In this document: piece by piece, positions 19,687 through 26,832 of the stretch
Layout of the letters: the number at the start of each line of letters is the position of its first letter
How positions within the stretch are numbered: the stretch's first letter is position 1
DNA from: Massilia antarctica
GTDB lineage: Bacteria; Pseudomonadota; Gammaproteobacteria; Burkholderiales; Burkholderiaceae_D
Length of the DNA stretch: 64,000 bases
NCBI RefSeq assembly: GCF_015689335.1
Contig: NZ_CP065053.1
Location: forward strand, 6,510,001-6,574,000
Direction of reading: 5' to 3'
Program-made: the position numbers and the translations under genes
Notes under the pieces: generated by a model
Told to the model about the DNA's origin: nothing
The model's input: only the letters and a program-made list of their open reading frames with translations
The model's database searches: none

Positions 19687-19771
19687 ATCGCGCGATTCGC
19701 TGGCGGCATGTGACCATGCGCCCGTGCCGCCAGCCCCCGCCCTTCACTGCCTGCCTTGTTGACGCAGGTCT

Positions 19772-19800
19772 AACCCCGTTTTCCTCATCGCTCCGTTTAA
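19772..19800 (+). promoter_or_regulatory. ECF-like promoter, copy in front of DUF4349 gene
   Basis: AACCCCG (19772-19778), 15 bases, then CGTTTAA (19794-19800), ending 89 bases ahead of the DUF4349 start. The same two boxes with the same 15-base spacing precede three of the cysteine-rich paralogs downstream, which is why this is called as a promoter. The AAC and CGT cores are typical of ECF sigma factor promoters. No sigma factor gene is in the window. Confidence 0.6.
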
Positions 19801-19889
19801 AGAACGAGGGCAAGCTATTTGTCCCTCTTGCCGCAGCCTCCAATTCGCCGGACCGCTGCCTTCTTCGATCGACAAACGCAAGGATTGCC

Positions 19890-20966
19890 ATGATGGACCT
19901 GAAACCTGTGACGCGCGCCGCCGGCTGCATCACCCTGCTCGCCTTGATGGCGGCATGTTCAAAAAAAGAAGCGATGGTGGCACCGCAGGGAAGCCCTGCC
20001 GCCATGATGGCGGCCGATACAGCCGCGGCGCCGGCTGCGGCTGAGTCCGCGGCGCCCGCCGCGCCGGCACCACCGCCACCACCGCCGCCAACGGAGAGTC
20101 GACGCGCGGCGAGCAAGCCAAGCCCTGTCCTCCAGGGCAAGGCACTCACCACGGCAAGCGCCGCCCAGCAGATGGCTGGAGGCGCAGGCATGGGCGCCAA
20201 CACCGATGGCGAGCGCAAGTTCATCCGCTCCGCGAGCGCGCACTTTCGGGTCAAGGACGTGTATGTGGCCGCGCTCGGCATTGAAGACACCGTTGCCGGC
20301 CATGGCGGTTTCGTCGTCAAGAACGATATCCGTACCGAAAGCGTGAATACCCAGCGCCATCCGGCCGGCGAGGGCAAGTTGATCGAGCTGAACGAATATA
20401 CCGTGCAGGGGCATCTGATCGTGCGCGTGCCAAGTTCCAAGACGCAGGAGTTCCTGCGCGCGATTGCCGCTCATGTGGTGTTTTTGGACGAGCGCACCTA
20501 CGCGGCCCACGACGCGCAATTCGACCTGCTGCGCCAGCAGTTGCAAGCCATGCGCGAGCAGGAAACGCAAAACGAGCTGGGCGACGCCGTCCGGGATGGC
20601 GGCAAGCTGGTGCAAAAAACGGACGCGATTGCCATGCGCAACGATGTCAAGGGCGCGCGCGATGCCGCCATTCTCGCGAAGAAGGAATTCGAGGACCAGG
20701 TGGCGTTCAGCACCATTGACCTGACCCTGATCCAGCCATCACGCGTGCTGCAAAGCGAGCGGATCGATCTAAACAGCGTGTCGCGCCAGTTCCGTCCCGG
20801 CTTCGCCAGCCAGCTGCGCGAGCAGTTGCGCGGCGGCTGGGAAGGTGCGCAGGCATTCTTCCTGGCCTTGGCCGGGCTGTGGCCGCTATTGCTGATCGCC
20901 GCTGCAAGCACTCTGGTGCTGCGGCGCGTGCTGCGGCGTCAGAAAAAAACCGTCGCGCCGGAGTAA
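19890..20966 (+). CDS. DUF4349 lipoprotein
   Basis: 358 residues from ATG 19890 (behind AAGGA). The signal peptide ends in LMAAC, a lipobox, so the protein is probably lipid-anchored. A low-complexity Ala/Pro linker (about 30-75) includes a run of seven prolines. The DUF4349 domain follows (IRSASAHFRVKDVYVAALGI, GHLIVRVPSSKTQEFLRAI), then a long coiled coil (about 205-270). A C-terminal membrane helix (about 320-345) is followed by basic residues. DUF4349 proteins are envelope proteins of unknown function. A shared ECF-like promoter ties it to the cysteine-rich paralogs. Confidence 0.88.
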   Translation: MMDLKPVTRAAGCITLLALMAACSKKEAMVAPQGSPAAMMAADTAAAPAAAESAAPAAPAPPPPPPPTESRRAASKPSPVLQGKALTTASAAQQMAGGAGMGANTDGERKFIRSASAHFRVKDVYVAALGIEDTVAGHGGFVVKNDIRTESVNTQRHPAGEGKLIELNEYTVQGHLIVRVPSSKTQEFLRAIAAHVVFLDERTYAAHDAQFDLLRQQLQAMREQETQNELGDAVRDGGKLVQKTDAIAMRNDVKGARDAAILAKKEFEDQVAFSTIDLTLIQPSRVLQSERIDLNSVSRQFRPGFASQLREQLRGGWEGAQAFFLALAGLWPLLLIAAASTLVLRRVLRRQKKTVAPE

Positions 20967-21045
20967 GGGCTGGCGCAGCGGCAGCGCTGCGGGTCCGTTG
21001 GTGCGGGCAGCGCGCCCGATGTCATGCGCCGGACGTTACGCGGGC

Positions 21046-21558
21046 TCAGGCCACGCTCTGATCGCGCCGCGGCAGGCGCCAGTCCTTGCGGATGAAGTGG
21101 CAGGTGTAGCCGGACGGATTGCGCACCAGATAGTCCTGGTGCTCCGGTTCGGCTTCCCAGAACGGCCCTGCCGGCGCCAGCTCGGTGACGACTTTTCCGG
21201 GCCACATGCCGGAGGCGTCGACGTCGGCGATGGTGTCGAGCGCGCTCGCCTTCTGCGCGTTGTTGGTGTAGAAAATGGCCGAGCGGTAACTCATGCCGGT
21301 ATCGTTGCCTTGGCGGTTGACGGTGGAGGGATCATGGATCTGGAAAAAAAATTCCAGCAATTGGCGGTAACTGAGCACGTCAGGATCGAACACGATGTCG
21401 ATGGCTTCCGCGTGCGTGCCGTGGTTGCGGTAGGTGGCGTTGGGCACGTCGCCGCCCGAGTAACCGACGCGGGTGGACGTGACGCCGGGCATTTTACGAA
21501 TCAAGTCTTGCATGCCCCAAAAACATCCGCCGGCCAGGATTGCTTGTTCTGATTTCAT
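21046..21558 (-). CDS. msrA: peptide methionine sulfoxide reductase MsrA
   Basis: 170 residues. [10 protein letters not shown] carries the catalytic cysteine of MsrA, and the rest fits the fold: [41 protein letters not shown], and [10 protein letters not shown]. It reduces methionine-S-sulfoxide in proteins and free methionine, protecting against oxidative damage. No signal peptide, so cytoplasmic. It has no fused MsrB domain. It lies between the DUF4349 gene (convergent) and the cysteine-rich array. Confidence 0.95.
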
Positions 21559-21782
21559 GTGTGCCTTTCGTTGTCACCGCTGCGCGGCATCGGCAATAGA
21601 TGGGACGCGAAAGGGTAATTGCAATAGAGCGGCGGAAACGACCGGCCGATCAATCTCCCGATTTGTACAATCAAGGTGCGCATCTTCACTATGCAGCACG
21701 AGAGCGAACAATGACACAACAAGAACAAGTCAGCCAGGCACAAGCCGCGCCGGATGCAGGCCCGTTCCAGCGCATGTTCGCT

Positions 21783-22292
21783 TTACTCCACCGCAGGGCC
21801 AGAGGATGCCGGTGACGGATCCAATTCCGGATGGGCGGGGGGCGGCATCTCGCCCATGACAAACATGCCAGGAGCTGGAGGCTTGACCGCCGCGTCGGTG
21901 CTATCGATTGAAACGCGCTGCTCATCGCCACCGGTACAGCCGATAGCGGACAACGCGAGCAGCGCCGCGCCGGCAATGCCTGGCAGTTTGCGCCACGCCT
22001 GGCGCACCGCGGCGCGCGGGCTGTCGCCGCAATCGCCGCAATCGCCGCTCATCACGGTCCCATCCGGGCGCCTGTAAAAGCGCACGCACAGCTCACCCCT
22101 ACTGTTTTCCGCCATCAGCGCAGCCGCTTGCGTGGCGGGCATGGCGGACAGGTTGAATACGCTCTTGTTGCAGTCGTTGCAGTGACGTACACGATCATCG
22201 CCCTTCATCTTGTCCCATGACGCCGTGCAGGGCGATGCGATCTCGATACGCTGCAGGGTAATCGGCTGGTCGTGCGCGCGGGTTTGTTTCAT
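21783..22292 (-). CDS. cysteine-rich membrane protein, paralog 1 of 4
   Basis: 169 residues. The start at 22292 is chosen by matching the other paralogs. The N-terminal domain has Cys22 (SPCTASW), Cys38 and Cys41 (RHCNDC), the motif NLSAM and Cys69 (LCVRFYRR), then DGTVM and a further CGDCG. The four spaced cysteines look like a metal-binding ribbon. A basic stretch and one hydrophobic helix ending SAIGC (Cys119) follow, then a Pro-rich tail. The domain resembles one I recall at the N-terminus of Bacteroidetes and myxobacterial proteins (CxxxW...CxxC...LSxM...CVR); function unknown. An ECF-like promoter lies 65 bases upstream. Confidence 0.75.
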   Translation of the reverse strand: MKQTRAHDQPITLQRIEIASPCTASWDKMKGDDRVRHCNDCNKSVFNLSAMPATQAAALMAENSRGELCVRFYRRPDGTVMSGDCGDCGDSPRAAVRQAWRKLPGIAGAALLALSAIGCTGGDEQRVSIDSTDAAVKPPAPGMFVMGEMPPPAHPELDPSPASSGPAVE

Positions 22293-22357
22293 GATGAAGT
22301 CCATTTCTATTCGATAAATCAGGAGGGCCGACTGAACATGTGCATATCGGCTACTTC

Positions 22358-22386
22358 TTGAACGGCCTTCCCGTGCGCACGGGGTC
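22358..22386 (-). promoter_or_regulatory. ECF-like promoter of cysteine-rich paralog 1
   Basis: On the minus strand GACCCCG (22386-22380), 15 bases, then CGTTCAA (22364-22358). It ends 65 bases before the start codon at 22292, almost the same distance as in paralogs 2 and 4. The sequence between promoter and start is also similar to that of paralog 4 (shared GTAGCCGA and CAGTCGG blocks). Confidence 0.6.
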
Positions 22387-22491
22387 AAACACGTCCGAAT
22401 CATTTTCCTGTTGCGGGCATCGCATGGCAGCGGCGCACATGCACTACATGTTTGCTAAAATCGGCTGATTGTTTTTCAAGGTTGCACCGTC

Positions 22492-22509
22492 AGGCCTCGG
22501 GCGAGGCCT
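22492..22509. repeat. inverted repeat AGGCCTC-N4-GAGGCCT
   Basis: A perfect 7-base inverted repeat with a GGGC loop lies 27 bases ahead of the DUF6585 start. There is no T-run, so it is more likely an operator or mRNA hairpin than a terminator. Confidence 0.35.
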
Positions 22510-22536
22510 ATTCACCATCGATGACGAAAGCGAGCG

Positions 22537-23349
22537 ATGACACACATTGAACAGGCAAGCGGTGCGCAAGAGCTGGGCCCATTGATGGCCACCTACGGCA
22601 AAAGCCGCTCATTCCTGTTCGTTGGCTGGTTCATGGCGGCGCTGTTCGCCCTGGTCGGGCTCTTTGTGCTGTGGCTGACCACCCGGATTGGGCCGAATTT
22701 CCGCTTCGGTGGCGATGTATCGCTGCTGTATGCAGTCGGATTTGGCGCGCTGGCGCTTGGCGCGGCGATTGCGTTCTTTATCTGGCGCCTGGCCGCGTCA
22801 CAGCCGGTTTTCCAGCTGTTCGACAATGGCATCCGCGCGAGCGGACCGGATGGCGATCATGTCACCCTGTACCGCGATCTGGAAGACCTGTACACCTTCT
22901 TTTATGGTGGCATCGGCTATCGCGCCGCGGCGAATGCGCCGTGGACGTTTATCGGCAGCCGCATCCACAAGTTCGGCGAATTGAGCGAGCGTTTGCGCGC
23001 CCTTCAGGTGGCGCACCGGGGCGAAGTATTGCACCAGCAGCTACAGGCGGGAAAGCCGGTGACCTTCCGCTATCTTGAGGACAGCGTGGCCCAATCAAAA
23101 AGCATGGTCGCTTCGCGCAATATGAACTTCCCCACCTTCGAGATGGCCCTGACCGCGCATCGGTTGCAGATCGGGCAGAAAAGCATCGATATCGGCCGCA
23201 TCGCCAACATCAACACCAATGTGTGGACCGAGACATCGAGCATCATGGACGTCGATGGCAAGGTGTTTCACAAGGTTCATCCGAGTTCGATCCTGTCGTT
23301 TGATCTGCTATGCGCACTGATCGCGCGGCAGCAGCAAGCGATGCGGTAG
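22537..23349 (+). CDS. DUF6585-like membrane protein
   Basis: 270 residues. Two membrane helices (about 28-50 and 63-86) are followed by a soluble domain: FQLFDNGIRASGPDGDHVTLYRDL, a Tyr/Phe-rich loop, RIHKFGELSERLRAL, and a final VFHKVHPSSILSFDLLCALI. This matches the DUF6585 pattern, a family with a PH-like domain of unknown role. It is divergent from paralog 1 and convergent with paralog 2 of the cysteine-rich array. Confidence 0.7.
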   Translation: MTHIEQASGAQELGPLMATYGKSRSFLFVGWFMAALFALVGLFVLWLTTRIGPNFRFGGDVSLLYAVGFGALALGAAIAFFIWRLAASQPVFQLFDNGIRASGPDGDHVTLYRDLEDLYTFFYGGIGYRAAANAPWTFIGSRIHKFGELSERLRALQVAHRGEVLHQQLQAGKPVTFRYLEDSVAQSKSMVASRNMNFPTFEMALTAHRLQIGQKSIDIGRIANINTNVWTETSSIMDVDGKVFHKVHPSSILSFDLLCALIARQQQAMR

Positions 23350-23391
23350 CAAGCACTCACGCTCCAGGCGGGAGATGCGCCGCCGGTCCGA

Positions 23392-24003
23392 TTAACGGGT
23401 ACAGATGCCTTTACTGTCCACGAGTACATGCGGCATCGAGTGTCCCGCTTGAGGCTTTCCGATCAGTTGCTGTACCTGAGCATCCTTTTCACACTGCCGC
23501 GCGCCCTTGGGGGACGATGCCGTTGGCGCAATGACCGCCGGGGCAGGAGCTGGAGCGCTCGGAGGCAGCGCGCCCATCAGAACCGTCATTGGCGGTTCAG
23601 GGTTGACCGTTGCGCCGGCAGTCACTGCCGGTACGGGCTGGCTTTCGCGCGTGGAACAGCCGGCTGCGGACAAGGCGAGCACCGCGGCGCCCGCAATACC
23701 GGGCAATCTGCGCCATGGCTGGCGCGCCACGGGGCGCACGCTGTCGCCGCCATCGCTGGACACAACGCTGCCGTCCTGGCGCTTGTCCATCCGCACACAC
23801 AAATCGCCATCGACGTTGCCCGCGATGAGCGCGGCCGCTTCCGCGGCGGGCATGGCGGAGAGATTGACGACGTTCTTGTTGCAATCCTTGCAGTGACGAA
23901 CACGATGATCGCCCGTCATGGCGTCCCATGACGCGCTACACGGCAAGGGAATCTCGATACGGTGCAGTTCGATTGGCTGGTGCTGCGCGCGCGGTGGTTT
24001 CAT
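23392..24003 (-). CDS. cysteine-rich membrane protein, paralog 2 of 4
   Basis: 203 residues from ATG 24003. It has the same plan as its paralogs: Cys22, Cys38/Cys41 (RHCKDC), NLSAM and Cys69 (DLCVRM), then DGSVV. The extra cysteine seen in the other three (DCG) is replaced here (SDGGDS). The hydrophobic helix (GIAGAAVLALSAAGC) is followed by a Pro/Ala-rich stretch. Unlike its paralogs it has a C-terminal extension of about 40 residues with two cysteines (QCEKDAQ...GICTR), so it has diverged. An ECF-like promoter lies 63 bases upstream. Confidence 0.75.
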   Translation of the reverse strand: MKPPRAQHQPIELHRIEIPLPCSASWDAMTGDHRVRHCKDCNKNVVNLSAMPAAEAAALIAGNVDGDLCVRMDKRQDGSVVSSDGGDSVRPVARQPWRRLPGIAGAAVLALSAAGCSTRESQPVPAVTAGATVNPEPPMTVLMGALPPSAPAPAPAVIAPTASSPKGARQCEKDAQVQQLIGKPQAGHSMPHVLVDSKGICTR

Positions 24004-24066
24004 GGTGACATCCGTTTCGTTGAATGGGTCAGAGGCCGGGATGGATATCTCCACATCCGTACAGGG

Positions 24067-24095
24067 TGAAACGGCCGAGCCAGGCAAACGGGGTT
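24067..24095 (-). promoter_or_regulatory. ECF-like promoter of cysteine-rich paralog 2
   Basis: On the minus strand AACCCCG (24095-24089), 15 bases, then CGTTTCA (24073-24067), ending 63 bases before the start codon. Same boxes and spacing as at 19772, 22358 and 26768. Confidence 0.62.
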
Positions 24096-24254
24096 CATTT
24101 TGTCGAAAGAATTTCCGGCATCGGCGGCAGCACTGGCATGACCGTTGTTCTGAATAATGCGACACGGAAGGCCGCGAGCATGGCGCCCGCTCCGATTATC
24201 AGCATTGTCTCCACGCCCGGAGCGCCGCACGGCCAGCTTGCCGACGGCCTTGGC

Positions 24255-24908
24255 TTACGCGTGGGTGCCGGAATCGGCGCTGCTGCCAAGGTCCCGATTG
24301 GCCGGCTGAGCATCCTTGTCGACTTTCTGGCCAGGCAAGGGCTCGCTTGTCGGCGCGGGTTCCACCTCGTCCGGCACGGCTTGCGGCGCTTCCGCTTGTC
24401 GACCGGGCGCGTGCGTGCGCGGCGCTTTGCGCCCTGTCGGTGGCTTGGGTACCTCCTCCACGATCATCGCGCCGACCATCAGTTCCATCTCGGGCGCTAC
24501 CATATCGAGCGCGACGGTAACCACGTTTTCCTTCGGCGCCGTCTCGCCGGTGCTACAAGCGGCCGCGGAGAGGGCCAGGACTGCAGCGCCCACCAAGCGC
24601 GGCAGCGAGCGCGCCGGTGGGCGCCCGGACGACTCCGGGACTGCGCCGCAATCGCTGGTCATGACCGTGCCATCCCGGCGGCGGTAAAACTTGACGCACA
24701 GCTCGCCCTTCAGATTGCCGGCGACAAGGGCCGCCGCTTCGGATTCGGTCATGGCGGACAGGTCGAACACATTCTTTTTACAATCACCGCAATACCGCAC
24801 GCGGGCGTCGCCCGCCATCTCGTCCCACGATGACACGCATGGCACGGGAATGCTGAAACGATGCAGTGCAAGCGTGCTGGTAAGCTTCGCGGGGTGTGTC
24901 GTGGTCAT
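24255..24908 (-). CDS. cysteine-rich membrane protein, paralog 3 of 4
   Basis: 217 residues from ATG 24908. Cys24 (VPCVSSW), Cys40/Cys43 (RYCGDC), DLSAM, Cys71 (ELCVKFYRR) and DCG are kept, shifted by two residues relative to the other copies. The hydrophobic helix ends LSAAACSTGE. The tail is longer and charged (KPPTGRKAPRTHAPGRQ). This is the most divergent copy. I find no AACCCCG/CGTTT promoter in the 91 bases between it and the RNA ligase gene upstream on the same strand, so it may be co-transcribed with that gene. Confidence 0.74.
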   Translation of the reverse strand: MTTTHPAKLTSTLALHRFSIPVPCVSSWDEMAGDARVRYCGDCKKNVFDLSAMTESEAAALVAGNLKGELCVKFYRRRDGTVMTSDCGAVPESSGRPPARSLPRLVGAAVLALSAAACSTGETAPKENVVTVALDMVAPEMELMVGAMIVEEVPKPPTGRKAPRTHAPGRQAEAPQAVPDEVEPAPTSEPLPGQKVDKDAQPANRDLGSSADSGTHA

Positions 24909-24999
24909 ATTTCTTTCTGTGCAGTGATTGCTTGATCCGACGGTGGAACGTCCGGATCATGATAACAACGCCAAGAAACGCCTTCAGCCCAGTCCGCTG

Positions 25000-25983
25000 C
25001 TACTTTTCGCCCAGCAGAAACTTGTTGCTGATGGCCTTGAAACTGACATCCGCACCCAGGCACTTGAATACCAGCCCTTCACGCTCGGTGCTTGCATTGA
25101 GCGCACTCTTGGCTTCCGCGCTGGCCAGCAGCGATGCGACGGTCGCGCCGGCCAGGTTTTGACTGTCCAGCACGGGGCAATGCCGGATGCCGGCACCGTC
25201 GAGGAAAGCCATCCGTTCAGCGGGCTTGAGGTAGCGGCCGCTGTCGATATCGTAGACATCGAACACGTGCAGTTGCGGCGCGCCGACGCCGTAGGGATTG
25301 CCCTGGACGCCAGGCCCGATCAGCTCGCCTTGCACGGCCAGATTGCGCCCGCTGGCGCGCAGCAGCGCTTCGAGCTTGTGGTCGCGCGCGGCCTTCCAAT
25401 AGGAATTGCCCTCGGTTTCCAACAAATCCAGATTGCGGCTGCAAACACCAAATTCGCCTTGGAACAGATAAGCGGTCAGGCTGGAGCCGTCGAGCTTTTC
25501 GCTCACTTCCCACTCCAGGCCGGCGCCCACCCATTCTTCGAGCTCATCCACGAGGTTCTGGATGCGCTCCTGATTGGTTTTCCGTACAAACGAAGGAAAC
25601 GGCCCTTTCACGATGCCCTGGAGCTCGGCGGGAACCGGCGGCTCGTACTTTTGAATGCCCAGCGCATCGGTGAGGTCATCGCCATCGTTGGCGCCGTCTG
25701 GCGCGGGCAGCAACAGGCCCTGGCTGATCTGTCCGCGCAATTTGATGGTGCGCAGCCGCGCGCCGGCGACGCCATTGAACTCGCGCTTGTCCTTGCACAG
25801 GAAAGGCGCGAGCGCTTCGGGCACCCAGGAATCGACTTCCAGATACAGGGCGTTGCCGCCAATCTGACATTCGCCCTTCTTCGAGACGACCTTCCAGCCG
25901 TCGACCGTGACGCATTCGATCGCATCCGCGCCCGGAATCGGCGCAATATCGATGACCTTGCGAACGGTTGCTAATTTACGCAT
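25000..25983 (-). CDS. RNA ligase (ATP), DRB0094/Rnl5 type
   Basis: 327 residues. An N-terminal OB-like domain (about 1-120, starting MRKLATVRKVIDIAPIPGAD) is joined to a nucleotidyltransferase domain. The latter has motif I EKLDGSS (Lys163, the residue expected to carry AMP), later EGLVFK (motif IV) and SFKAISNKFLL (motif V). This arrangement is that of Deinococcus DraRnl, which seals 3'-OH/5'-phosphate nicks in RNA-containing duplexes. It would act in RNA repair. The gene sits between paralogs 3 and 4 of the cysteine-rich array on the same strand, 124 bases after paralog 4. No companion end-healing enzyme is seen nearby. Confidence 0.9.
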   Translation of the reverse strand: MRKLATVRKVIDIAPIPGADAIECVTVDGWKVVSKKGECQIGGNALYLEVDSWVPEALAPFLCKDKREFNGVAGARLRTIKLRGQISQGLLLPAPDGANDGDDLTDALGIQKYEPPVPAELQGIVKGPFPSFVRKTNQERIQNLVDELEEWVGAGLEWEVSEKLDGSSLTAYLFQGEFGVCSRNLDLLETEGNSYWKAARDHKLEALLRASGRNLAVQGELIGPGVQGNPYGVGAPQLHVFDVYDIDSGRYLKPAERMAFLDGAGIRHCPVLDSQNLAGATVASLLASAEAKSALNASTEREGLVFKCLGADVSFKAISNKFLLGEK

Positions 25984-26107
25984 GTATTATTCCTGATTGG
26001 TTCACTATCATTAACTTGGTCCTGACGCATTTTTTCAGCGACGATTTCTCCGATCTCGGCATGCCCCGCCCAGGCATCTCCACGGCCCGCTCCGCTCCGC
26101 TCGCCAC

Positions 26108-26704
26108 TTATCGTGCGCGCCGCTTGGCGCTTTTGTTCGCTTGCTTGACGGGTTGCCGCGGTGCCGCAGCGTTACCCAGCCATTCCACCGGCTTGGCGTC
26201 TTTTGCTTGCTGCCCACCTTGTCCGGCAGGCTTCGCGTCGTCGGCAACGTCCCGCATCGTCGGCGGCGGTGCGCCCATCATCACCATCATCGGCGGTGGA
26301 GGCACCGTCGGCGCGGGGGCATCAACCGTGGAGACAGGCACAGGGTCGCTCACGGCGCAGCCAGCGGCGGATAAAGCCAGCATGGCCGCACCTGCCATGA
26401 AAGGCAGCTTGCGCCACGCCTGGCGGACGGCGGCGCGCGGGCTATCGCCGCAGTCGCTGGTCATGACCGTGCCGTCCTGGCGTTGATAAAACCGCACGCA
26501 CAGCTTGCCATCATGGTTGTCCGCCAGCAGCGCGGCCGCGTCGGCTTGCGCCATGGCCGAGAGATTGAACACGTTCTTGTTACAGTCCTTGCAATGGCGG
26601 ACGCGATCGTCGCCTTTCATCTTGTCCCATGACGCCGTGCAGGGAGAAGCGATGTCGATGTGCCGCAGTGCGATCGACTGCTGGTGGACGCTGGATTGCT
26701 GCAT
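26108..26704 (-). CDS. cysteine-rich membrane protein, paralog 4 of 4
   Basis: 198 residues from ATG 26704. Cys22 (SPCTASWDKMKGDDRVRH), Cys38/Cys41, NLSAM, Cys69 (KLCVRFYQR) and DCG match paralog 1 almost exactly over the first 100 residues. The hydrophobic helix (FMAGAAMLALSAAGC) is followed by a Pro/Met-rich segment and a basic C-terminus (KQANKSAKRRAR). Paralogs 1 and 4 also share upstream sequence, so they are probably the most recent duplicates although they lie furthest apart. An ECF-like promoter lies 63 bases upstream. Confidence 0.75.
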   Translation of the reverse strand: MQQSSVHQQSIALRHIDIASPCTASWDKMKGDDRVRHCKDCNKNVFNLSAMAQADAAALLADNHDGKLCVRFYQRQDGTVMTSDCGDSPRAAVRQAWRKLPFMAGAAMLALSAAGCAVSDPVPVSTVDAPAPTVPPPPMMVMMGAPPPTMRDVADDAKPAGQGGQQAKDAKPVEWLGNAAAPRQPVKQANKSAKRRAR

Positions 26705-26767
26705 GTGGAAATCCGTTTCTGATAATTGGAGGGATCCGACTGGAGATAGCGACGTCGGCTACATCAT

Positions 26768-26796
26768 GAAACGGACCCGGCGTGCAAGCGGGGTTA
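26768..26796 (-). promoter_or_regulatory. ECF-like promoter of cysteine-rich paralog 4
   Basis: On the minus strand AACCCCG (26796-26790), 15 bases, then CGTTTCA (26774-26768), ending 63 bases before the start codon. Identical boxes and spacing to the paralog 2 promoter. Confidence 0.62.
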
Positions 26797-26832
26797 AACG
26801 TGGAAAATATGTCGTTTCGCCAGCGGCGGACG

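Follow-up and report, generated by a model that had tools for sequence, protein, structure and literature searches.

A promoter motif in two parts, TTAACCCCKTTT-N11-CCGTTTCA, of a class other than that of sigma-70, precedes its target genes in Massilia antarctica and very probably serves as the promoter for a single ECF sigma factor, which would control a small set of envelope genes. The candidate ECF gene is located at G000:C1:5805699-5806274, beyond the window, i.e., the whole 64-kb stretch of DNA that was analysed. The motif has a rigid spacing and a typical position ahead of its genes, and it both co-occurs with the candidate ECF gene and adjoins it in many genomes; direct recognition of the motif by the candidate ECF would fit these sequence patterns. 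Five such promoters were found in the M. antarctica genome, which makes for a compact regulon.

Motif sites and genes in the window

A pattern scan of the window for RACCCCG-N15-CGTTYMA recovered, with 0 mismatches each, all four sites that an earlier note on this DNA had reported, whilst none of 100 dinucleotide shuffles of the window contained a match. The reported coordinates were exact for three of them, but the fourth is off by one, i.e., 26767-26795 on the minus strand instead of 26768-26796. In the motif scan, the site on the plus strand (CTAACCCCGTTTTCCTCATCGCTCCGTTTAA; 19770-19800, or 19772-19800 in the short form reported earlier) constitutes the putative ECF-type promoter of a gene for a DUF4349 lipoprotein (19890-20966, plus strand; 358 aa; Pfam PF14257, E 2.4e-14). 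Its -10 element ends 89 nt before the ATG, and hydropathy revealed one strong hydrophobic stretch close to the C-terminus of the protein.

The three putative ECF-type promoters on the minus strand precede genes for paralogous proteins with a cysteine domain. The first (22358-22388; 22358-22386 in the earlier note) is degenerate, with 5 mismatches relative to the refined consensus described below, and leads paralog 1 (21783-22292, minus strand). The second (24067-24097; earlier 24067-24095) leads paralog 2 (23392-24003, minus strand), which is devoid of the last conserved cysteine, and the third (26767-26797) leads paralog 4 (26108-26704, minus strand). The distances from the end of the -10 element to the ATG are 65, 63, and 62 nt, respectively. 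The number of cysteine-rich paralogs had been put at three, but four are present. The additional one, paralog 3 (24255-24908, minus strand), has no motif of its own; it is located downstream of a motif-led paralog and is possibly a member of an operon. Between paralogs 4 and 3 lies a co-directional RNA ligase gene (25000-25983, minus strand; Pfam RNA_ligase and PHA02142 OB-fold), which may be transcribed from the promoter of paralog 4. The cysteine domain of the paralogs is not represented in Pfam, and its conserved cysteines look more like a metal-binding module than like a sign of the redox role that the earlier note had raised as a possibility.

The refined motif and its specificity

The short core of the motif is weak by itself. 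When one mismatch was allowed, RACCCCG-N15-CGTT was found four times in the window with 3.0 matches expected, which is not above chance. The genome-wide scan for the short core that the earlier note had called for gave a poor result: exact RACCCCG-N15-CGTT occurs 14 times in the whole genome vs. 6 times for the reversed control, and nine of the ten matches beyond the window overlap an ORF of at least 150 codons on any strand, which is a weak criterion in G+C-rich DNA. Two of the matches beyond the window (L003 and L004) have a GGTCTGACCCCGGTT repeat in common. The specificity of the motif resides in the flanking bases, i.e., TTA..., TTT, and ...TTTCA.

Comparison of relatives yielded a refined motif with -35 element TTAACCCC(G/T)TTT, a spacer of 11 nt, and -10 element CCGTTTCA. 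The gap was identical in all 45 distinct sites from 111 loci that had been retrieved by protein search, with gaps of 8-29 nt permitted, and in 81 of 82 sites across all loci, many of which had been retrieved with a fixed-spacing pattern. Conserved halves with a free spacer in between are a feature of the motif across many genera, and it is mostly positioned 30-90 nt upstream of start codons. This rigid architecture supports the earlier suggestion of an ECF promoter. In the whole genome, one more strong site is found, upstream of a MuiA-family gene identified by TIGR02231. In ECF promoters of the RpoE, EcfG, and SigR types, the -35 element has an AAC core and the -10 element a CGT core. The cores of the motif are ECF-like in this respect, as was noted before, but its AACCCC segment is C-rich and the AAC-CGT gap of 19 nt is slightly longer than the usual ECF spacing.

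An ECF sigma factor gene that tracks the motif

ECF sigma factors (group 4 of the sigma-70 family) contain only regions 2 and 4 of sigma-70 and are about 190 aa long. The product of the candidate gene, whose presence tracks the motif, is 192 aa long and contains these two regions only (PF04542, E 1.6e-14; PF08281, E 6.7e-12). Its best NCBIfam match is the PRK12513-type ECF (NF009166), at 190.6 bits, which is below the curated cut-off of 206 bits. PF08281, which represents sigma-70 region 4, matches at 24 loci in the genome and at none in the window, in agreement with the earlier statement that the window encodes no ECF sigma factor.

Within the genus, the ECF gene is present in 12 of 17 genomes, and regulon sites were found in exactly those 12. 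Relatives of MuiA and the DUF4349 lipoprotein (E cut-offs of 1e-20 and 1e-10, respectively), which were found without using the motif, occur in the same ten genomes, and VIT relatives (E cut-off 1e-20; likewise found without the motif) in 10 of the 17; all of these genomes are ECF-positive. A site precedes all ten muiA genes (at most 2 mismatches), all ten DUF4349 genes (at most 3 mismatches), and 12 of 13 VIT genes (at most 4 mismatches), the remaining VIT gene being located at a contig end. Among the 21 cysteine-domain paralogs, three have no upstream site.

The correlation extends to the family, as the earlier note had proposed to examine. Among 245 family genomes, a site was present in 47 of 58 with the ECF gene and in 8 of 187 without it (Fisher p 2.6e-31, a value that overstates independence because the genomes share kinship); beyond the genus, these figures were 35 of 46 and 7 of 182. 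The ECF-positive genomes contain 84 sites vs. 10 for a reversed-pattern control, and the ECF-negative genomes 9 vs. 7. Almost half of the family sites (43/93) are located at most 20 kb from the ECF gene. At 2 mismatches, 11 of the 58 ECF-positive genomes have no site; three of these 11 were examined and carry core-only sites, with 5-6 mismatches, in the ECF locus. The refined motif also did well when its position relative to genes was considered: out of the 30 sites outside the genus for which loci were returned (47 sites in total), 25 are located ahead of genes of the VIT, Beta_propel, or YfbK families or of one additional conserved family.

A scan of 84,980 species, with one genome each, revealed 28 stretches with the motif, of which 22 lead genes for cysteine-domain, YfbK, VIT, MuiA or beta-propeller proteins, five are located before one conserved Pfam-less family, and one belongs to neither group. 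An ECF relative is encoded in the 8 kb of sequence covered in 11 of these stretches. All 11 match the candidate best among the 24 PF08281 loci of the M. antarctica genome, a test that is biased by the use of the candidate as query in finding them; eight of them share only 37-44% identity with the candidate and come from Xanthomonadales and, in one case, from Polaromonas. These comparisons support the earlier predictions of an ECF gene elsewhere in the genome and of a regulon extending beyond the window. In relatives, the motif is also found upstream of VIT, YfbK/VWA, and Beta_propel genes.

The ECF gene itself is not preceded by the motif in any of nine upstream regions in the genus (all at least 9 mismatches); thus, autoregulation, which is common among ECF sigma factors but not universal, is absent there. 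A sigma-70-like TACAAT is located 8 nt before the ATG and is kept in all 11 genus regions inspected. In Xanthomonas, Luteibacter, and Frateuria, the order is motif, YfbK gene, ECF gene. The gene downstream overlaps the ECF stop codon. An ECF pattern matched 20 of 41 loci, and in 17 of these 20 the products of the next genes looked alike by eye in their N-terminal portion, their Pro-rich central segment, and their C-terminus; in other genera an ORF overlaps the ECF gene in 10 of 11 cases. A clear hydrophobic stretch is present in four of six partner proteins scanned, the M. antarctica partner being one without it, and no Pfam or NCBIfam match was found for the partner. It is probably a membrane anti-sigma factor.

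Possible mechanism, alternatives, and related systems

The sigma-70-like promoter conserved in the genus suggests that the ECF sigma factor is probably produced constitutively and kept inactive. An envelope signal would then cause the partner to let go of the sigma factor, which would bind the -35 and -10 elements of the refined motif and switch on a few envelope genes. The outputs would be MuiA, the DUF4349 lipoprotein, and the cysteine-domain proteins here, and also VIT, YfbK/VWA, and beta-propeller proteins in relatives. A role in the envelope is plausible given the target families MuiA, DUF4349 lipoprotein, VIT, and YfbK.

The motif might instead be an operator for a DNA-binding activator or repressor, with an ordinary promoter elsewhere. 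The upstream half is rich in C and exceeds the length expected of a -35 element, and the promoter reading is based on sequence rather than on mapped 5' ends. However, the halves are non-symmetric and at a fixed spacing, the sites are on the coding strand ahead of starts in the loci read, and the motif is linked to an ECF gene, the regulator gene for which linkage was examined; an operator is thus very improbable. It is likewise very improbable that the promoter is served by a different ECF sigma factor and that the link to the candidate reflects only shared ancestry or co-location. There are many PF08281 loci to choose from, a second ECF gene is located ~5 kb from the muiA gene, and the co-occurrence test covered the candidate only, but presence, absence, and adjacency fit the candidate, as does the query-biased best-match result, and the best site score in the 24 loci was 12.5, with an altered gap, vs. 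25-43 for the four window sites. That the common upstream sequence is a functionless leftover of gene duplication can practically be dismissed: whereas the three paralogs with sites have related 5' leaders, the motif also precedes the unrelated DUF4349, MuiA, VIT, YfbK, and Beta_propel families in many genera, and its halves are conserved while the spacer is free, so that the species-wide and family scans contradict such an origin.

With the ECF promoter as the preferred reading, the closest known system is SbrI/SbrR with muiA in Pseudomonas aeruginosa (PA2896/PA2895), in which an ECF sigma factor is paired with an anti-sigma gene and targets muiA in cell-envelope stress and surface growth, according to PMC10418997. 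Features of the SbrI system are a response to stress on the cell wall and the control of swarming and biofilm. muiA is a target in both systems, here at the level of promoter sequence, but DUF4349, VIT, YfbK, beta-propeller, and cysteine-domain genes are added here. Furthermore, sbrI and sbrR are themselves tabulated under SbrI in a portion of PMC9602442, unlike the ECF gene of the genus, which is not motif-led. The likeness is based on the target gene and on a literature link via RpoE6 of Xanthomonas campestris, an ECF described in a section of PMC6085468 as a PA2896 homologue at 38.2%, and not on the sequence of SbrI. A little-described ECF group of Massilia and Xanthomonas might be connected to the Pseudomonas SbrI response.

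Tentatively, and with somewhat less than even confidence, one ECF lineage with an almost invariant promoter may run a surface-protein module of Burkholderiales and Xanthomonadales, in which VIT-TPR-DUF2135, YfbK/VWA, MuiA, Beta_propel, and DUF4349 proteins would act in one envelope pathway, the conserved C-terminal end of the partner would sense the state of that pathway, and genera would add outputs of their own, of which the Massilia cysteine-domain family would be an example. Families without a known function, i.e., DUF4349, DUF4139/4140, VIT-DUF2135, YfbK, and the Pfam-less cysteine domain, can now be placed in a co-regulated set with its promoter and probable sigma factor, and their common role can be tested by removal of one gene. 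The promoter rule is legible straight from the sequence across many genera. Literature searches for an ECF sigma factor together with DUF4349, and for vault protein inter-alpha-trypsin together with a sigma factor, gave no match among the papers covered. MuiA and an ECF sigma factor occur together in one paper, and YfbK, a sigma factor, and von Willebrand do so in another (PMC3973600).

Putative promoter sites and their targets in Massilia

The earlier note had described four promoter sites of the form RACCCCG-N15-CGTTYMA, with cores typical of ECF sigma factors, ahead of a DUF4349 lipoprotein gene (19890-20966, +) and cysteine-domain paralogs. All four are present without mismatches, and none was obtained in 100 shuffles. 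Exact matches lie at 19772-19800 (+), 22358-22386 (-), and 24067-24095 (-); the fourth site exists as well, but its coordinate had been given one base off, its true place being 26767-26795 (-). When one mismatch was allowed, the window count of the short core RACCCCG-N15-CGTT was not above chance. The core also fared poorly in the whole-genome scan that the note had itself suggested: 14 exact matches were found vs. 6 for the reversed pattern, which served as background, and 9 of the 10 matches outside the window overlap an open frame of at least 150 codons on some strand. Thus, the signal is real, but the core as it had been written is too weak. Two of these 10 matches (loci L003 and L004) have a repeat in common; GAGGTCTGACCCCGGTTRGGAAA is repeated at these two places, at 2.63 and 2.92 Mb.

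One cysteine-domain paralog was used as the query in a search of 60 genomes (M. antarctica and 59 relatives). Ten gave matches: M. antarctica itself, 8 of the other 16 genomes in the genus, and, weakly, one of another genus. The same motif lies upstream of the matching genes, with more conserved flanking sequence. The genus pattern TTAACCCCGNTTG-N10-CCGTTTCA, with up to three mismatches allowed, matched 49 sites, spread over 14 of the 17 genomes, vs. 4 for the reversed control. The gap between AACCCC(G/T) and CGTTT(C/A)A was 15 nt in 81 of 82 distinct sites from all collected loci, many of which had been retrieved using a fixed-spacing pattern; it was identical in all 45 distinct sites from 111 loci retrieved by protein search alone, with gaps of 8-29 nt permitted. 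A gap this fixed is what would be needed by a sigma factor that contacts two elements.

A relaxed search of the M. antarctica genome (at most one mismatch) gave four sites vs. two control matches. One more strong site, at G000:C1:1653176-1653206, lies upstream of a MuiA-family gene, identified by matches to DUF4139, DUF4140, and TIGR02231. Together with a degenerate site at paralog 1, the four relaxed-search sites make up five promoters in this genome. Across the genus, sites are also found ahead of VIT-TPR-DUF2135 genes and, in a single genome, ahead of the gene for a YfbK-type VWA lipoprotein. In larger fetched regions, many of which had been picked because of the motif, a site was found for 10/10 DUF4349 genes, 9/9 MuiA loci, 10/10 VIT genes, 1/1 YfbK gene, and 18/21 cysteine paralogs (17 at three mismatches or fewer, one at five), and for none of 14 ECF rows (nine of the ECF sigma factor discussed below, five of another); best matches in the null were mostly at 8-11 mismatches. 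The count was redone on genes of the genus found via protein search, and an upstream site was present for 10/10 MuiA, 10/10 DUF4349, and 12/13 VIT genes. Upstream of each of the three site-less paralogs, and with the same orientation, is a motif-led paralog with which it may be co-transcribed in an operon.

The candidate sigma factor and its partner

In relatives, the VIT genes have as neighbors an ECF gene and, overlapping it, a partner gene. The ortholog in M. antarctica is located at G000:C1:5805699-5806274, with its partner at approximately 5804636-5805709. This ECF is present in 12 of the 17 genomes of the genus, and the motif precedes regulon genes in the same 12. Two ECF-negative genomes matched the genus pattern (G003 and G009), with single three-mismatch sites that do not look regulon-like; G003 also has a two-mismatch site in the family scan. 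At the cut-offs used, relatives of MuiA, DUF4349, and VIT proteins were found in the genus only in ECF-positive genomes.

The family was examined in 245 genomes, with the ECF scored at E <=1e-30 and the motif at two mismatches or fewer. The ECF was found in 58 and the motif in 55: 47 genomes have both, 11 the ECF only, 8 the motif only, and 179 neither (outside the genus 35, 11, 7, and 175, respectively). ECF-positive genomes contain 84 sites vs. 10 reversed-pattern matches, whereas the 9 sites in ECF-negative genomes, vs. 7 reversed matches, are at chance level. For 43 of the 93 sites, this ECF is no more than 20 kb away. Outside the genus, 30 of 47 sites were read, and 25 of them precede VIT (6), Beta_propel (17), YfbK (1), or a Pfam-less family (1); these targets were named by sequence similarity, with Pfam run on L160 (a beta-propeller relative) and L205. 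Five of the eight ECF-negative genomes with sites were read, and a regulon-like target was seen in one, G075, where an ECF relative of 27% identity, under the cut-off, lies directly downstream.

TACAAT is conserved 8 nt ahead of the ATG of this ECF in all 11 upstream regions displayed from the genus, and the motif is absent upstream of the gene (0/9 upstream regions). This suggests that, in the genus, expression of the sigma factor is probably constitutive and its activity held in check by the partner, which we infer to be an anti-sigma factor. By eye, the partners in 17 loci resemble one another in their N-terminal part, are rich in Pro in the middle, and end in a conserved C-terminal segment; of six partners scanned, four have a clear hydrophobic stretch, and the M. 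antarctica partner is not one of them.

Occurrence beyond the family and likeness to SbrI

A scan for TTAACCCCKTTT-N11-CCGTTTCA across 84,980 species, each represented by a single genome, gave 28 stretches, where about two were expected by chance according to our own estimate. They belong to Massilia, Duganella, Janthinobacterium, Rugamonas, Polaromonas, Rhodoferax, Xanthomonas, Luteibacter, Dyella, Frateuria, and some MAGs. The genes that follow encode YfbK (8), VIT (6), cysteine-domain (5), MuiA (2), and beta-propeller (1) proteins, a Pfam-less family (5), and one other; Pfam was run on nine of them. Within the 8 kb examined, 11 of the 28 stretches have an ECF relative: seven of these relatives follow YfbK, two follow other motif-led genes, and two lie beside motif-led genes. 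All 11, which were found with this ECF as the query, match it best among the 24 PF08281 loci of the M. antarctica genome, and an overlapping ORF follows 10 of them. Among 368 other genomes sampled at the class level, 8 had a site, vs. 6 control matches. A family with no Pfam match, whose members are probably secreted (AIGRLADVTVVDR...), comes after the motif in Polaromonas, Rhodoferax, and others (L144, 6957-7844; L143, L141, L158, L159, and L205); in L143, L159, and L205, an ECF relative is found nearby.

In Pseudomonas aeruginosa, the ECF SbrI, paired with the anti-sigma factor SbrR, activates muiA in response to envelope stress, with effects on swarming and biofilm formation (PMC10418997). 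RpoE6 of Xanthomonas campestris is tabulated as a homologue of PA2896 (SbrI), at 38.2% (PMC6085468). As muiA is a target of SbrI, so a MuiA-family gene lies behind the motif in Massilia. By analogy, the Massilia system would be another ECF regulon that works like that of SbrI, the two sigma factors being at most putative orthologs. A search of largely open-access literature found no paper that links DUF4349 with "ECF sigma factor," and none that links "vault protein inter-alpha-trypsin" with "sigma factor."

Cysteine-domain proteins and neighboring genes

A Pfam-less five-cysteine domain, with the pattern PC...RVRxCxxCxxxV...LCVRFY.R.DGTV.T.DC, heads the paralogs (21783-26704, -) and their relatives in L037-L045. 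Among 41 sequences, C22, C38-x2-C41, and C69 are common to all and C85 is nearly always present. The domain has 307 database relatives at E <=0.001 (120 of the 307 among the matches listed); some of nine that were read have an extra N-terminal stretch and a different tail. Its predicted structure is fairly good, and a structural search with this model gave no informative match; our guess is that it is a metal-binding module. In the paralogs at 26108-26704 and 21783-22292 (both -), a hydrophobic stretch after the domain ends in lipobox-like LSAAGC or LSAIGC, as though an internal lipoprotein signal came after a cytoplasmic domain.

In G006, a relative's genome that is 48% complete, none of the ECF, MuiA, DUF4349, and VIT genes is intact, each being broken or split, while their motifs remain; either the module as a whole is decaying or the sequence contains errors. 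A gene for the peptide methionine sulfoxide reductase MsrA (21046-21558, -) lies between the paralogs and the DUF4349 gene, and, judged by sequence, has the same setting in relatives L037-L041. Embedded among the paralogs is a gene (25000-25983, -) for an RNA ligase that has a PHA02142 OB-fold domain; judged in the same way, its counterparts in L039 and L040 are placed likewise.
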